DNA of 64,000 nucleotides from assembly GCA_023663185.1 (NCBI GenBank), contig JAMPHY010000008.1:62001-126000 (forward strand), in the 5' to 3' direction. The notes beneath the pieces are model-generated. The model worked only from the letters and a program-made list of their open reading frames with translations. It did not search any database and had not been told where the DNA came from. Source of the stretch: Clostridiales bacterium. GTDB taxonomy: Bacteria > Bacillota > Clostridia > Lachnospirales > Lachnospiraceae. Made by a program: the position numbers and the translations under genes. This document shows positions 32,388-39,005 of the stretch, in pieces (position 1 is the first letter of the stretch; the number at the start of each line of letters is the position of its first letter).

Positions 32388-32482
32388 ACGGTAAGATATT
32401 ATTGCGCAGAATATTAATAAATGATACAATGAATAAGCTTAATATTTTATACATAATTTTATATAATGGAGGAAAACATAAA

Positions 32483-33937
32483 ATGAAAAAATGTATTTAT
32501 GGTGCGCTTGCTGCCGCGTTGCTTCTGATGTCAGGCATAATGTTTGGAATGCAGGCAAATGCCGCCGACGCACTGAACCAATCGTTTGCTAAGTCTGCAC
32601 AAAGTAAACTTGTGGACAAGGCGACGATATCTTATTCGGCGCAACTCCCTAAAGTGCCTTCAAGCGATGACGGTATGCTTTATCTGTACGAGATGCAGCC
32701 GTTTGAATACTCAATATCGGCTTCTGCAACGCCCGTAGCGTCGGCGTCTGCAACAGCCAACCCTCAATTTACAATAGCCTATACAGGCACCAGACTTTAT
32801 ACTAAGCTTGGTCTTGCTGTAAAAGTAGGTGGACAGAATGTGTTGATAGCGAATCCGCAGTATATTTCTAATCCGGAATTACTTGCGACTCATACGAAGG
32901 CACGTAAGAACAGACCGTTAAAATCATTAGCCAGCAAGGATTTCTGTAATCTTCTCATACAGAGTGATTCAAATATAAACGGGGTTATCAGGGACGGTTA
33001 TACTACAGTGCAGGTTATAAGCGATATGACTGCGGGCACCAATGAAGGATATAAAAACCCCTATGCAAGAGCGGCGGCGATGGCTTCTGATACGCACCCC
33101 GTAACGCCTCTGCGTTATATGCTCAACGCTTCAGATGTGAACGGAATAAATGCCATGACGCAGCTTCTTACAAGATGTGCCGCGGAGTCCTCGGCAGAGA
33201 ATTATATAATAGGAAATGAAGTGAATGTGCGTAAATGGAATTACATGGTTTGGCAGGATTGGGATTCATATGTCAGGGAATATGCTCAGGTATTCAGGGT
33301 TGCATATAATGCAATAAAGAGTCAGAACGCAAATGCCAGAGTATTCATATGTCTTGATCAGAACTGGGACAGGAACCGTGCGTCGAGTCATGCGGAATAT
33401 TATGAATATATTGATGGAAAAGACTTCCTTGACAAGTTCAATGCACTGATTTCAAGGGAAGGAAATATTGATTGGGGCGTAGCTCAGCACCCATATCCTG
33501 TACCGCTTACTTATGCTAAATTCTGGGATATGTCAGGTTGTCCGGACGGAAACTATATGAAGAATCAGGTGTCGTCAGGAAAGATGGTGACATTCCAAAA
33601 TCTGTCAGTCCTTACTAATTACTTACAGAGAAAAGAAATGCTGTCACCAGATGGCAAAGTAAGACATGTAATATTGAGCGAGATAGGCTTAACAAACGCA
33701 CAGGGAGTAGATGTGCAGGCAGCCGCTCTTTATGCTTCATATGCCGCTGCCAAAGCAAATCCGTATGTAGAAGAGATTATATATTTGTGTGACTATAGTG
33801 AACTTCAGCTTGATTGCAGGCTTTCCGGACAGTCACAGTTAGTATTTAACAGTCTAGGAACTGCGGACGAGGCAACATATGAAGCATGGGCAAAAAGCTT
33901 TATTGGAATAAGCAACTGGTCGCAGGTTATAAAATAG
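32483..33937 (+). CDS. DUF5722 secreted protein, candidate glycoside hydrolase
   Basis: 484 aa. A signal peptide (MKKCIYGALAAALLLMSG, with ANA-A as a likely cut) directs export. A Ser/Ala/Thr-rich stretch follows near residues 80-95, then a TIM-barrel-like domain. YIIGNEVNVRKWNY and, about 170 residues later, HVILSEIGLTNAQ each supply a Glu at the places used as acid/base and nucleophile in clan GH-A glycosidases. WGVAQHPYP is also typical of such barrels. I recognise it as DUF5722, a family without an established activity as far as I know. ATG 32483 lies behind TGGAGG. Confidence 0.78.
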   Translation: MKKCIYGALAAALLLMSGIMFGMQANAADALNQSFAKSAQSKLVDKATISYSAQLPKVPSSDDGMLYLYEMQPFEYSISASATPVASASATANPQFTIAYTGTRLYTKLGLAVKVGGQNVLIANPQYISNPELLATHTKARKNRPLKSLASKDFCNLLIQSDSNINGVIRDGYTTVQVISDMTAGTNEGYKNPYARAAAMASDTHPVTPLRYMLNASDVNGINAMTQLLTRCAAESSAENYIIGNEVNVRKWNYMVWQDWDSYVREYAQVFRVAYNAIKSQNANARVFICLDQNWDRNRASSHAEYYEYIDGKDFLDKFNALISREGNIDWGVAQHPYPVPLTYAKFWDMSGCPDGNYMKNQVSSGKMVTFQNLSVLTNYLQRKEMLSPDGKVRHVILSEIGLTNAQGVDVQAAALYASYAAAKANPYVEEIIYLCDYSELQLDCRLSGQSQLVFNSLGTADEATYEAWAKSFIGISNWSQVIK

Positions 33938-34469: not shown

Positions 34470-37400
34470 CTATAGCTTACCGCAGAGGTAGGCGTAGGCA
34501 TTTATTATTGTTTTTTGCTGCCTGCCTGCTATAAAATAGAAATCTATCTGCGTTTTATCTGTCTGTGAGCTGTTTTCTGTGCATATATATGAGCCATATG
34601 CCGATATGTCACAGCATATCACCGGATTGTCCGTGGCGACAAGAATGCCGTATCCTTTGTCGGAGAGAATAAAGGGCAGTTCGTCTGCATTCTTTCCGTG
34701 GGAGATATATCTTGCCGTATTGCGTAAGCTTAGTCCGCTTACCTCAGATGTTCCCATTACGTATATGTTTTCGCCTTTATGCCAGTCAAAAAATAACCAT
34801 GACTTGTTGAGTGCGGAAACGTCGTCAATCTGTCGGCATTCTTTGTTGCGTTCCGCAAGCAGTAGTTTCTTATCGCGCGTCATATATCGGATTGCCCCGC
34901 TTGTTCTATCCACTTGTATGCAAAGTTCATCGGTCATAAGCTCTACAGCAGAGCTTGATTCTTTATAAAGCCATGCGTTTTCTATGTGATTAATGGCAAT
35001 CTTGGAATGAACCGTTGTATCAGGCTGCTTTCCTTTGGCAAAAGTGACGCGGACAATCGCGCTGCCTATGGGAGATAAGCGGAGTACGCCATACCGACTC
35101 TGCATATACAAACCGTCTTTTTGCTTAGATATCCAGCGAATAGCAAGGTCGATTTTGGAATGACCTGTAGGGCGCAGCTTTTCGGTTGCCGGCATGTCGC
35201 CGAACTTGATTTCGGGAAGCTCTGTATTTGGAACGGAGGGTTCTAACTTGGCGGCTTCATCTGGTTCAATAGGCTTGTTGGATTCAAGCTTCCTGTTCTG
35301 TGCAATTACTATCCTTCTTTGAGATGAACTTCCTGCATTTAAGGTGGAAGGCGTTGCATAGAGCCGGGCATTTGTATCTTTGGTTTCTTCATTGGTAACA
35401 TGTGTGTCATAAATATCAGCGCTGTAATCTTGTCTGATATTGTCGGTAAGTTTGGCATTGCCGTTTAGGTCAGAGCTTTTCTTAGAGTCGCACTCCGGTT
35501 CATCTTTCTCCGGAATAGGCTCTGTTATAAGCCCTGTAAGATTTCCCATATGCAGAATACATAATTCATGTAGGGCGCGGGTAACTGCGACGTATAATAA
35601 CTTGGCGTGTCCATCGTCTATAGGATAATCTTCTTTTGTCGGATTAAAAATCAACACCGCGTCAAATTCCAGTCCTTTTGTATATTCTACTGGAAGCACC
35701 ATGACGCCGTTGCCAAAGACCGCATTATCAAGGCTGCTGTCAACTATGTCAAGATATTTACCAAGTTTCTTAGCAGTCTCGGCTGCATGTTTACGGTCGC
35801 GGCATATTATGGCGATGGTTTCAAGCCCCTTTTGCTGCCAAGTTCTGCATATAGAAGCAGTTCTTTCAAAGAGAGCATGAGAACCCGCAGCTTCCTCTAT
35901 CTGCACGGGTAAGCCGTGGCGGATAATCGGTTCCACCGGATATGTGGAAAACCGTCCGTGCTTGAGAATTTTAGTGGCAAATTCAGAGATTTCTATGGTG
36001 TTGCGGTAGCTCTTTTTTAAGATGGCGAAGCTGTCCATTTTATCGCTTAAAATCAGCTTTTTCAATTCTTCCCAATCGCTTAATCCATATCCGAAATGTA
36101 TATTCTGGGAAATATCCCCCATGATTGTATAGGTACAGTCCTTGATACAGAAATTCAGCACACTGTACGCCATCATGCCGAAATCCTGCGCTTCATCAAT
36201 TACAATATGGTGTGCCTCGCTGATTACTTCGGTTTCTTTTATCCGTTTATAAATATAGGCAAGCGCCGCTAAATCGTAGACGTCGAATCCATCAGACAGA
36301 ATGGAGATATTAAGCCCCTTTAGCGTCTGAGACGCGATAAAATCATGGTAAATATCAAAAATTGATGTTGTAAAAATACCTTTGCCAAATTTTCCACGGT
36401 AATATTTAAGTATAGCTTTTCGTTCTTTTTCCGTAAAAGAAATGTCCTTGCCGAGAAACTCGTCTTTTACCTTATTAATAAGCCTGTCGTTTAGCATATT
36501 TATTTTACTCTGCATTGAAACCTTCGGGTTTTGCATTATATAACGCTCGATTGCTTCTTTGGATAAAAGCTCGGTTAAGTCTTTTGCAGGCGCCGTTTTT
36601 CCGTCCGTCTCATCAAAAACGCCTGTTTTGCCATTTCGTATACCTTCCACAAACTGTCTGCGGTTAAGACAGATACTTTCACGGGGAATGCTTTTCCACT
36701 CTAAATCTGTGCAGTATTTCTCTAAATCATAAAACCATTGGAGCGTGCCCTTGACAGCGCTTAGAGGATTTAGTTTATCGGTTTCTGTTATATGGTATTT
36801 CTGCTCGTTCCAGTCTTCATACAGAAGTCTTGTGAATAGCTGTTCCATAGTCATCTGCCTTATGCCGTGCACGTCCAAATCGGGCAGCACGCTTGTGATA
36901 TAGTTAAGCAGAATATGGTTGCTGCCGACGATGTAGAAGTCATCGGGCTTGATGCGCTCTTCGTAATTATATAAAATATATGAAATTCTGTGCATGGCGA
37001 CGGTGGTTTTGCCTGAACCGGCGGCGCCTTGCACTATTACGTTATGATAGGGAGACTTCCTTATAATGTCGTTCTGCTCTTTTTGAATAGTCGCGATGAT
37101 TTCACCCAATACCGCCTGTTTGTTTTTTGCCAGATACTTTGTCAAAAGGTCGTCATTGGAAACAACTTCCGTATCGTAATAGTCAATAAGCTTACCGTCG
37201 TTGATTTCATAAGTACGCTTAAGCTTTAAATCAATAGAGACGTTTTTTTCATTGGGAGCCGCATAGCTGCATTCTCCGAGACCATTTTCATAATATACAT
37301 TGGCAATCGGAGCGCGCCAGTCGATGACGATTTGGTGCGTGGCGTCTTTTGCAATGCCGCCTTTGCCGATATAGATGGACTCGTCTTCGTTTACCGACTT

Positions 37401-37697
37401 ATCGCGGAATATGATTCTGCCAAAGTATGGCTTGTTTAACGCCTTTAAGTTGCGCTTAAGCGCACGTTTCATATGCTCATTCAATGTGATTGTGTTACTT
37501 AGCATTGTATAAATTTCCTCATCATTGTCGTGATATCTCTTAAGCATTTCTTCGATATCTTCGCTCATTCGCGCGACTTCCCTTTTGTAGTTTTCCACGT
37601 TGCCACGCACTATTGCGAGGGTATTGGTAAGGTTCTCTTCCTCGTCATGTCTGGATATGGCTTTAAAAATGTTTTCGTCAGAGGTTTTATTACTCAT
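34470..37697 (-). CDS. HelD-type helicase fused to a GH31 N-terminal-like domain
   Basis: 1075 aa in one unbroken frame. Residues 1-718 are HelD, the UvrD-like ATPase that frees stalled RNA polymerase. Seen are an N-terminal coiled coil (20-60), the family mark IDWRAPIANVYY, Walker A GAAGSGKTT (224-232), Walker B HHIVIDEAQDF, SYRNTIEISEF and VTRALHELCILHMG. Residues 719-828 form a polar linker. Residues 829-1075 do not belong to HelD: YGVLRLSPIGSAIVRVTF, EVSGLSLRNTARY, LPFILSDKGYGILVATDNP and IDFYFIAGRQQKTIINAYAY follow the order of the N-terminal beta-sandwich of GH31 alpha-glycosidases. No catalytic barrel follows. AAAGGAG precedes the ATG. The fusion is unusual; the HelD call is firm and the tail call good. 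Confidence 0.85.
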   Translation of the reverse strand: MSNKTSDENIFKAISRHDEEENLTNTLAIVRGNVENYKREVARMSEDIEEMLKRYHDNDEEIYTMLSNTITLNEHMKRALKRNLKALNKPYFGRIIFRDKSVNEDESIYIGKGGIAKDATHQIVIDWRAPIANVYYENGLGECSYAAPNEKNVSIDLKLKRTYEINDGKLIDYYDTEVVSNDDLLTKYLAKNKQAVLGEIIATIQKEQNDIIRKSPYHNVIVQGAAGSGKTTVAMHRISYILYNYEERIKPDDFYIVGSNHILLNYITSVLPDLDVHGIRQMTMEQLFTRLLYEDWNEQKYHITETDKLNPLSAVKGTLQWFYDLEKYCTDLEWKSIPRESICLNRRQFVEGIRNGKTGVFDETDGKTAPAKDLTELLSKEAIERYIMQNPKVSMQSKINMLNDRLINKVKDEFLGKDISFTEKERKAILKYYRGKFGKGIFTTSIFDIYHDFIASQTLKGLNISILSDGFDVYDLAALAYIYKRIKETEVISEAHHIVIDEAQDFGMMAYSVLNFCIKDCTYTIMGDISQNIHFGYGLSDWEELKKLILSDKMDSFAILKKSYRNTIEISEFATKILKHGRFSTYPVEPIIRHGLPVQIEEAAGSHALFERTASICRTWQQKGLETIAIICRDRKHAAETAKKLGKYLDIVDSSLDNAVFGNGVMVLPVEYTKGLEFDAVLIFNPTKEDYPIDDGHAKLLYVAVTRALHELCILHMGNLTGLITEPIPEKDEPECDSKKSSDLNGNAKLTDNIRQDYSADIYDTHVTNEETKDTNARLYATPSTLNAGSSSQRRIVIAQNRKLESNKPIEPDEAAKLEPSVPNTELPEIKFGDMPATEKLRPTGHSKIDLAIRWISKQKDGLYMQSRYGVLRLSPIGSAIVRVTFAKGKQPDTTVHSKIAINHIENAWLYKESSSAVELMTDELCIQVDRTSGAIRYMTRDKKLLLAERNKECRQIDDVSALNKSWLFFDWHKGENIYVMGTSEVSGLSLRNTARYISHGKNADELPFILSDKGYGILVATDNPVICCDISAYGSYICTENSSQTDKTQIDFYFIAGRQQKTIINAYAYLCGKL

Positions 37698-37825
37698 TTT
37701 CTGCTCCTTTCGTGTGTAGTCTATGTATAATCATTTCTGTATGGCGGAACTGTTACTGAACTATTACAATTTTACTGGAAAAAATAAAAAAATTGTAGAC
37801 TTTTATTTTTGATTGTGTTAAACTA

Positions 37826-37831
37826 TATAAT
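37826..37831 (+). promoter_or_regulatory. -10 element candidate of the LprI-like lipoprotein gene
   Basis: TATAAT in an AT-rich region with no clear -35. It lies about 15 bases upstream of a terminator-like leader hairpin. Confidence 0.4.
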
Positions 37832-37842
37832 GAAGTGTGGGT

Positions 37843-37874
37843 AAAAGCGTTGGCGGGTAGCCGACGCTTTTTTT
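37843..37874 (+). terminator. Leader terminator-like hairpin
   Basis: AAAGCGTTGGC-GGGTA-GCCGACGCTTT is followed by seven Ts (37868-37874). It sits between the putative promoter and the lipoprotein gene, with no forward-strand gene upstream, so it may be an attenuator rather than an end-of-gene terminator. Confidence 0.6.
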
Positions 37875-37922
37875 GAAGTTAGGAAGAGAGATGTATCTTA
37901 TAAAGGAGTATGAGGATAAAAT

Positions 37923-39005
37923 ATGAAAAAGCGTTTAACTCCGGCACTGGCAATCATAATGATAGGCTTGCTATCGGGCTGCGGAAATGCAGACGAGAAA
38001 AAAGTGGAAGTGCCGGAAATTGAAATAATTACTGGTGAACAGACAGAAAATGAGCAATCGGAAAGTGAGCAATCAGGAAATGGACAGTCAGATGGCACTC
38101 AGTTAAGCGACGAGACATTAAATACCAGTGAGTCTGACGAAGCGCAATTCAGTTTTGCAGATATAACAGATAGAACCTTTTATTTTAGCAGCGGTGCAGG
38201 AGGCTGGCGTACTGAGCTTAGTATTAATGCGGACGGAGGTTTTGAAGGGGTTTATTCGGATTCAGATATGGGAGTCTGCGGGGACGCTTATCCGAACGGA
38301 ACTTTATATTATTGTGAATTTTCAGGTATGTTCGGCGATATAGAGAAGGTAGACGAGTATACTTATAAGATACGGCTAAAGTCTATCGAATATGCCAAAA
38401 CGCCGGAAGAGGAAGAAATCATAGACGGAACCCGTTATAGATATTCGACTGCATATGGATTAGACGGCGGTGAAGAATTTTATATATACCTTCCGGGCAT
38501 AAAGATTGACGACCTGCCGGAATCCTATAGGAGTTGGGTGGGCTATTATAATTTGGAATCTGTTTCAGGAGAAGAACTTTCGTATTATGGGCTTTATAAT
38601 ATAAATGAAGAAGAAGGTTTTTCAAGCTATGTGTATGAAAAAGAAATGAGCCTTGCCGGAAAAATAGAAATGAAGATTGCTTCCGCCGAAGAGAAAAATG
38701 CGGAATTGGAGGCTAAACTGGAGAAGGATATTACGCAGCTTGATATGAATGAGACTGCGAAGGAAATTTTTCAGTTATGGGACGATACTTTAAATGCTGT
38801 GTGGAAACTTTTTGAGAACACCTTGATTGAAGAGGATATGGAAGCCCTTAGAGTAGAAGAGCGAGAGTGGATTGCGCAAAAAGACGCTAAAGTTAAGGAA
38901 GCCGGAGCAGAATATGAGGGCGGAAGCATACAGGAGATGATAGAACTTTTGGAAGCGGCGAGACTGACGAAAGAAAGGGTGTACGAGCTGGCGGAAATTT
39001 TCTAA
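37923..39005 (+). CDS. Lipoprotein with LprI-like (DUF1311) C-terminal domain
   Basis: 360 aa. The lipobox is IGLLSGC with Cys21. A Glu/Ser/Gln-rich spacer follows (residues 35-80; repeated SEQSGNGQS-type units). A middle domain (80-255) has FYFSSGAGGWRTELSINADG. The end (265-360) matches the helical DUF1311/LprI pattern (FQLWDDTLNAVWKLFENTL, LRVEEREWIAQKDAKV), a family that includes lysozyme-inhibitor lipoproteins. Function is inferred only loosely. It converges with the PfkB kinase gene and the two overlap by four bases. Confidence 0.72.
   Translation: MKKRLTPALAIIMIGLLSGCGNADEKKVEVPEIEIITGEQTENEQSESEQSGNGQSDGTQLSDETLNTSESDEAQFSFADITDRTFYFSSGAGGWRTELSINADGGFEGVYSDSDMGVCGDAYPNGTLYYCEFSGMFGDIEKVDEYTYKIRLKSIEYAKTPEEEEIIDGTRYRYSTAYGLDGGEEFYIYLPGIKIDDLPESYRSWVGYYNLESVSGEELSYYGLYNINEEEGFSSYVYEKEMSLAGKIEMKIASAEEKNAELEAKLEKDITQLDMNETAKEIFQLWDDTLNAVWKLFENTLIEEDMEALRVEEREWIAQKDAKVKEAGAEYEGGSIQEMIELLEAARLTKERVYELAEIF

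Follow-up and report, generated by a model that had tools for sequence, protein, structure and literature searches.

An open reading frame of 1,075 aa in the window, the 64,000-nucleotide stretch of Lachnospiraceae DNA analyzed here, joins a HelD-type motor to a C-terminal domain of the type found at the N terminus of GH31 glycosidases. The frame occupies 34470..37697 on the minus strand, with its ATG at 37697 and its stop at 34470. The original prediction had placed a HelD motor and a barrel-less GH31 N-terminal-type domain in a single reading frame at these coordinates, and profile matches and ORF coordinates bear this out. HelD presumably removes polymerases that have stalled, and in Bacillus subtilis it presumably protects against rifampicin; the class of the window's HelD, an RNA polymerase recycling motor, is predicted from homology. 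As judged from phylogenies of core and tail, the tail was shown to have been gained once in the history of Lachnospiraceae. With slightly less than even confidence, we propose that a HelD-type motor gained a whole GH31 N-domain in a single event and that this domain was exapted as a tethered protein-docking module.

Components of the fused reading frame

The motor core (residues 1 to 720; 35538..37697, minus strand) matches NCBIfam HelD_BACSU (E 1.1e-101), and its matches to PDB 6wvk (HelD; E 1.7e-72) and 6yxu (E 3.8e-25) point to homology over the ATPase core. Because its score of 341 bits is under the cutoff of 419 bits for the HelD_BACSU equivalog (NF041464), the motor is classed as a relative of HelD_BACSU outside the formal B. 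subtilis equivalog. Like the class I HelD of B. subtilis (PDB 6wvk and 6zfb), the core has Walker A, DEAQD, and C-terminal helicase motifs, but the B. subtilis protein has 774 aa and no added domain, whereas the window's protein adds a linker and a GH31-N-type tail. In an alignment of 79 relatives, every column from residue 222 to 233, around Walker A (residues 224 to 232; 37002..37028, minus strand), is 100% conserved except 225 (94%), DEAQD (Walker B; residues 501 to 505; 36183..36197, minus strand) is invariant, and later helicase motif residues are likewise conserved; both motifs lie at the residues originally assigned to them. The N-terminal coiled coil aligns only partially with B. subtilis HelD, starting at residue 66, and a conserved acidic YHDND.E (residues 55 to 61) is a candidate for the tip of the class I secondary-channel arm. 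A Shine-Dalgarno-like AAAGGAG (37704..37710, minus strand) is found upstream of the ATG.

The motor is followed by a polar, fast-evolving linker rich in A, P, S, and K (about residues 721 to 828; 35214..35537, minus strand), which ranges from 72 to 184 aa over 79 relatives (median, 117) and has about 105 in the window. Between linker and sandwich lies a conserved, fusion-specific segment of 38 residues, FGDMPxTExLRPxGHxKIDLAxRWxxKQxDGLYxQS (residues 829 to 866; 35100..35213, minus strand), which is mostly gapped or unconserved in 21 GH31 enzymes compared. Window residues 828 to 868, searched alone, matched nothing in Pfam or the PDB.

The remainder of the frame (residues 867 to 1075; 34473..35099, minus strand) is a homologue of the GH31 N-terminal beta-sandwich and ends at the N-domain/barrel boundary. 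The window's tail alone matches the NCBIfam alpha-xylosidase PRK10658 over positions 55 to 259 (E 3.5e-8); as a single sequence it has no Pfam match, and the six PDB matches found with phmmer are weak (best E 0.012) and are all to GH31-type proteins. An hmmsearch of the PDB with a profile of 79 tails retrieved 17 sequences at E <=1 (16 at <=0.01), all GH31-type, a few of which we take to be GH31 members, and the best of which was BoGH31A (E 5.3e-16). Pfam Gal_mutarotas_2 matches 57 of the 79 tails at E <=1 (best 6.4e-9; the window's tail is not among them), and PRK10658 matches 53 of 79 at E <=0.01. A profile of 21 GH31 N-domains matched 101 of 103 tailed HelDs at E <1e-3 and none of a no-tail set of 38, which comprised 37 tailless HelDs and one HelD ORF (in L211) with its tail in another frame; the two misses (L107 and L256) are tails cut by contig ends. 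Alignment of the tails to the 21 GH31 N-domains with hhalign gave a probability of 100 (E 4.6e-48). These profile comparisons put homology between the tail and the N-terminal beta-sandwich of GH31 enzymes far beyond chance. The closest enzymes run on past the matched region into the start of the barrel (e.g., LPKWAFG), where the fused ORF stops, and the catalytic (beta/alpha)8 barrel is absent from the ORF by comparison with related GH31 enzymes.

Residues were compared between 100 tails and 21 GH31 proteins, with duplicates between collections kept and at least two of the 21 belonging to other families of the order. Residues common to both (R883, L947, E949, E976, Y997, P1008, S1012, G1015-Y1016-G1017, G1035, D1052, Y1054, G1058, and L1071) look like the core of the sandwich. 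Conserved in GH31 and lost in the tails are D961, G980, L981, Q983, E985, G987, L998, Q1000, N1002, I1005, S1024, R1069, T1072, and A1075; the GH31 loop motif GLGQxEEG..NxRG..YLxQxN is mostly lost, and a loop of ~40 aa present in GH31 is absent. In the enzymes, the loop that the tails have lost lies toward the barrel. Conversely, F832, G833, P836, L841, G845, H846, W855, S867, Y869, L872, F886, W909, R955, K974, A995, S999, C1029, and Y1034 are conserved among the tails and infrequent in these GH31 proteins, and the best-conserved tail block is 851 to 875. The tail resembles GH31 alpha-glycosidases and alpha-xylosidases (BoGH31A, 5jou; CjXyl31A, 2xvg; YicI) in its N-terminal beta-sandwich, by sequence profile, but differs from them in having no barrel, and hence no catalytic residues, in the loss of most of the loop motif, and in its new front segment.

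Distribution, history, and selection

A pattern-based scan of the contigs of 84,980 genomes yielded 280 relatives, the best 80 of which were analyzed. The original prediction had allowed for HelD lacking this tail in all close relatives; instead, the tail is present in all of the best 80 of 280, and its occurrence in other Lachnospiraceae, for which a search had been proposed, was found both there and in 23 of 299 genomes of the family. Seventy-eight of the 80 reach the tail end (48 to 83% identity over their best segment); in the other two, L107 and L113, the contig stops inside the tail. Sequence titles of the 80 give Lachnospiraceae, its genera, a higher taxon, or nothing, and never another family. 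Named isolates with the tailed architecture include Eisenbergiella tayi, E. porci, Acetatifactor muris, and Parablautia intestinalis; CE91-St56 is listed with them, and one of these records is a complete genome.

In the window's genus, HelD was found in 13 of the 37 genomes searched and the tail in the same 13; a 38th genome (G115) has neither, and the reading frame in G026, one of the 13, is interrupted. In a family sample of 299 genomes from 298 genera, at least 99 have a HelD-like match, a lower bound with three candidates scored per genome, and the tail was detected in 23 at E <1e-40 with up to nine candidates scored per genome. The tailed gene of G103 is split over two contig ends. In G201, also among the 23 (L211:4779-7887), a HelD ORF of 750 aa and a tail ORF of 323 aa overlap in different frames, and this break in the linker is either real or a sequencing error. 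At least eight tailed genomes (G083, G097, G144, G156, G168, G172, G251, and G297) have a second HelD-like gene. In a class sample of 291 genomes (E <=1e-15), the tail occurs only on the window's own HelD; the other eight class genomes with a tail match have frames of 412 to 839 aa, which are taken as GH31 enzymes. Because the genome collections share members, the samples are not independent of one another.

Among plasmids there were six matches, and the five of them listed are annotated TIM-barrel proteins. A sequence from human feces labeled “Bacteriophage sp.” (MT836747.1; L282:964-4212) contains a tailed HelD in a frame of 1,083 aa, and its neighboring frames resemble ABC transporter and permease genes by eye; it is probably mislabeled bacterial DNA. 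In an 8.6-kb stretch of another phage record, MT835808, a 798-aa frame that matches the tail lacks a HelD match.

A single branch (SH-aLRT, 98) separates all 39 tailed rows from the rest in a tree of 76 HelD cores; the tailed clade contains no tailless row, and one change suffices. This tree, of 39 tailed and 37 tailless cores, contains two or more duplicate pairs (among them G308/L092 and G085/L098) and was built by a quick method with a midpoint root, and some of its tailless branches are long. The four nearest tailless HelDs end 4 to 7 residues past the core, where the linker would begin. Set against 23 GH31 N-domains, the tails group as a single clade (98/92, with duplicates among the 42 tails). 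Furthermore, core and tail distances are correlated over 79 proteins (Mantel r 0.74; none of 2,000 permutations as high). Based on the core tree, the tail clade, and this correlation, one fusion followed by joint descent of motor and tail is the simplest history. The best-matching enzymes are mostly GH31 frames of 660 to 860 aa; the best single-segment enzyme match in the class sample belongs to a different family (G586; E 9.9e-34) and is about as strong as the best within Lachnospiraceae (G212; 4.1e-30). In two genomes in which HelD is tailless (G212 and G169; L196 and L198), tail-related GH31 genes show frameshifts or decay.

In 14 close pairs, some of which share a member, dN/dS is 0.04 to 0.12 for the core and 0.05 to 0.23 for the tail, which is higher than the core in 11 pairs, equal in one, and lower in two; linker values are 0.22 to 0.76 (computable in 13 of the 14 pairs). 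Judged by these ratios, the tail is clearly constrained, somewhat less so than the motor, and the linker only weakly. Median tail identity to the window is 55%, and that of four core blocks is 64, 85, 70, and 54%. Since the dN/dS of the tail is mostly above that of the core and its identity is lower than in three of the four core blocks, a partner may constrain the tail less than RNA polymerase constrains the motor. The conserved tail probably has a new job, because the enzyme part has been stripped away and the tail kept under selection.

This pattern bears on two simple explanations. A chance fusion with a GH31 relic, proposed at the outset, would make the tail a neutral passenger, and the weakly constrained linker, the different frames of motor and tail in L211 (G201), and the interrupted frame in G026 would fit such a history. 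Nevertheless, it is very improbable given the dN/dS of 0.05 to 0.23 and the near-invariant residues of the tail, which is present in 39 of 39 clade rows with none tailless inside; conservation, single origin, and purifying selection do not bear out a relic. An assembly or annotation artifact might be suspected in a genome of 54 contigs, as the window's is, but the architecture recurs in isolates that have been named and in a complete genome, which makes the probability of an artifact negligible.

Locus and upstream region

Comparison of 792 neighbor ORFs from 79 loci (flanks of 6 kb, 10 kb for the window, and shorter near contig ends) revealed no conserved neighbor of helD, the largest neighbor cluster being present at 18 of 79 loci, on both sides and both strands. 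A sugar-operon context was considered and rejected, since no neighbor cluster exceeds this number of loci. In the window, a gene for a DUF5722 protein (32402-33937, plus strand; E 7e-71) faces the 3′ end of helD.

Upstream of helD, a promoter-like TTAACA-18-TACAAT (37792..37821, minus strand) agrees at 10 of 12 positions, which is at chance level (2 sites found versus 2.1 expected in the scan). Convergent promoters are described for B. subtilis helD (PMC12802891); at the window's helD, the two sites found by a simple scan of 37200-38100 for such an arrangement both lie on the minus strand. An inverted repeat flanked by runs of A and T (37843-37874; AAAAGCGT..ACGCTTTT) sits between helD and a divergent LprI-domain gene at 37923; it appears terminator-like on either strand by eye and is absent from the output of the promoter-region scan.

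Possible roles of the tail

In the proposed mechanism, the freed GH31 N-domain would act as a flexibly tethered module for docking to proteins, with the new segment (residues 829 to 866) probably helping to cap the face once covered by the barrel. As the core pushes its arms in and strips off nucleic acid, the module would keep the motor attached to RNA polymerase or to a further complex of HelD with RNA polymerase. GH31 accessory domains pack on the barrel (PMC4967831), and in a GH31 hexamer the beta-sheet of the N-domain contacts the adjacent protomer (PMC9061262). An interaction surface is likelier than a sugar-binding module because the barrel and loop residues are gone, and we favor docking over sugar sensing. 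The earlier label of sugar-binding domain is not supported: in the GH31 enzymes consulted (PMC9061262 and PMC4967831), the N-domain packs with the barrel, aids oligomerization, and can supply a residue to a subsite, and loop residues conserved in GH31 are gone from the tails. The lack of a conserved neighbor would fit an ever-present partner, such as RNA polymerase or HelD itself. A precedent is PcrA. Its C-terminal Tudor domain, at the end of a linker that is long and apparently disordered, binds RNA polymerase, and tight binding to the elongation complex depends on it (PMC8318588). The PcrA/UvrD Tudor tail is likewise a small C-terminal domain behind a long variable linker on a helicase-like motor that acts on RNA polymerase (PMC8318588), but its domain and origin differ by sequence, and polymerase contact by the window's tail is inferred only. 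A Tudor domain was not matched in the tail, as the 79-tail profile hits GH31-type sequences only (17 of 17 PDB sequences). The broken frame between motor and tail in two genomes (G201 and G026) counts against docking.

The tail could instead act within HelD, folding back on the motor or pairing two HelDs to control ATPase activity or polymerase release. The long tether, the conserved fusion-specific segment, the lack of a conserved gene partner, and the N-domain contact with a neighboring protomer in the GH31 hexamer (PMC9061262) all suit this arrangement, and the present data do not tell it from docking to another protein; we regard it as rather unlikely. A cytoplasmic ligand sensor, in which a sugar, sugar phosphate, or glycosylated inhibitor tunes RNA polymerase rescue, would follow naturally from descent from a carbohydrate enzyme, and a GH31 N-domain can supply a residue to a sugar subsite (Tyr99 of LlGH31_u1; PMC9061262). 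However, GLGQxEEG..NxRG..YLxQxN is mostly lost and the ~40-aa loop missing, no gene is conserved beside helD, and the barrel of BoGH31 houses its active site, with extended-substrate binding credited to the PA14 domain (PMC4967831), leaving a sensor improbable. That the tail still binds a small ligand (a sugar, a sugar phosphate, or the sugar moiety of a glycosylated polymerase inhibitor) and so gates RNA polymerase recycling is a long shot; if true, the ligand-gated tail would be a direct metabolite-to-transcription-rescue switch in gut Lachnospiraceae.

The delta subunit of RNA polymerase is the partner of HelD in B. subtilis. A HARE-HTH search, positive in 3 of 14 control genomes (B. subtilis included), found a match in one of 20 tailed and one of 19 tailless genomes (37 of 39 without), and delta thus seems to be missing from most of these genomes, tailed or tailless. 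Replacement of delta by the tail was rejected, as HARE-HTH matches do not separate tailed from tailless genomes; seemingly missing from most of both groups, delta does not explain the fusion. Deleting the tail would be an easy means of finding out what HelD requires beyond its motor in these bacteria, most of which seem to lack delta.

Among the titles and abstract starts listed, a literature search blunted by “held” as a common word yielded no description of the HelD-GH31 tail architecture. The main text of a HelD survey (PMC8655204) does not mention a C-terminal, extension, fusion, or additional domain, and the longest HelD among the entries inspected in its list has 872 aa. A HelD lineage that took up a glycosidase domain and has kept it in at least 23 of the family genomes sampled would represent exaptation into the transcription machinery. 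A second, unrelated HelD fusion occurs in L280:2257-5352 (G087:C53), a 1,032-aa frame with a ketopantoate reductase (ApbA, E 3.8e-26; ApbA_C, E 8.5e-24) in frame before a HelD-like motor, which could be a join or a frameshift.
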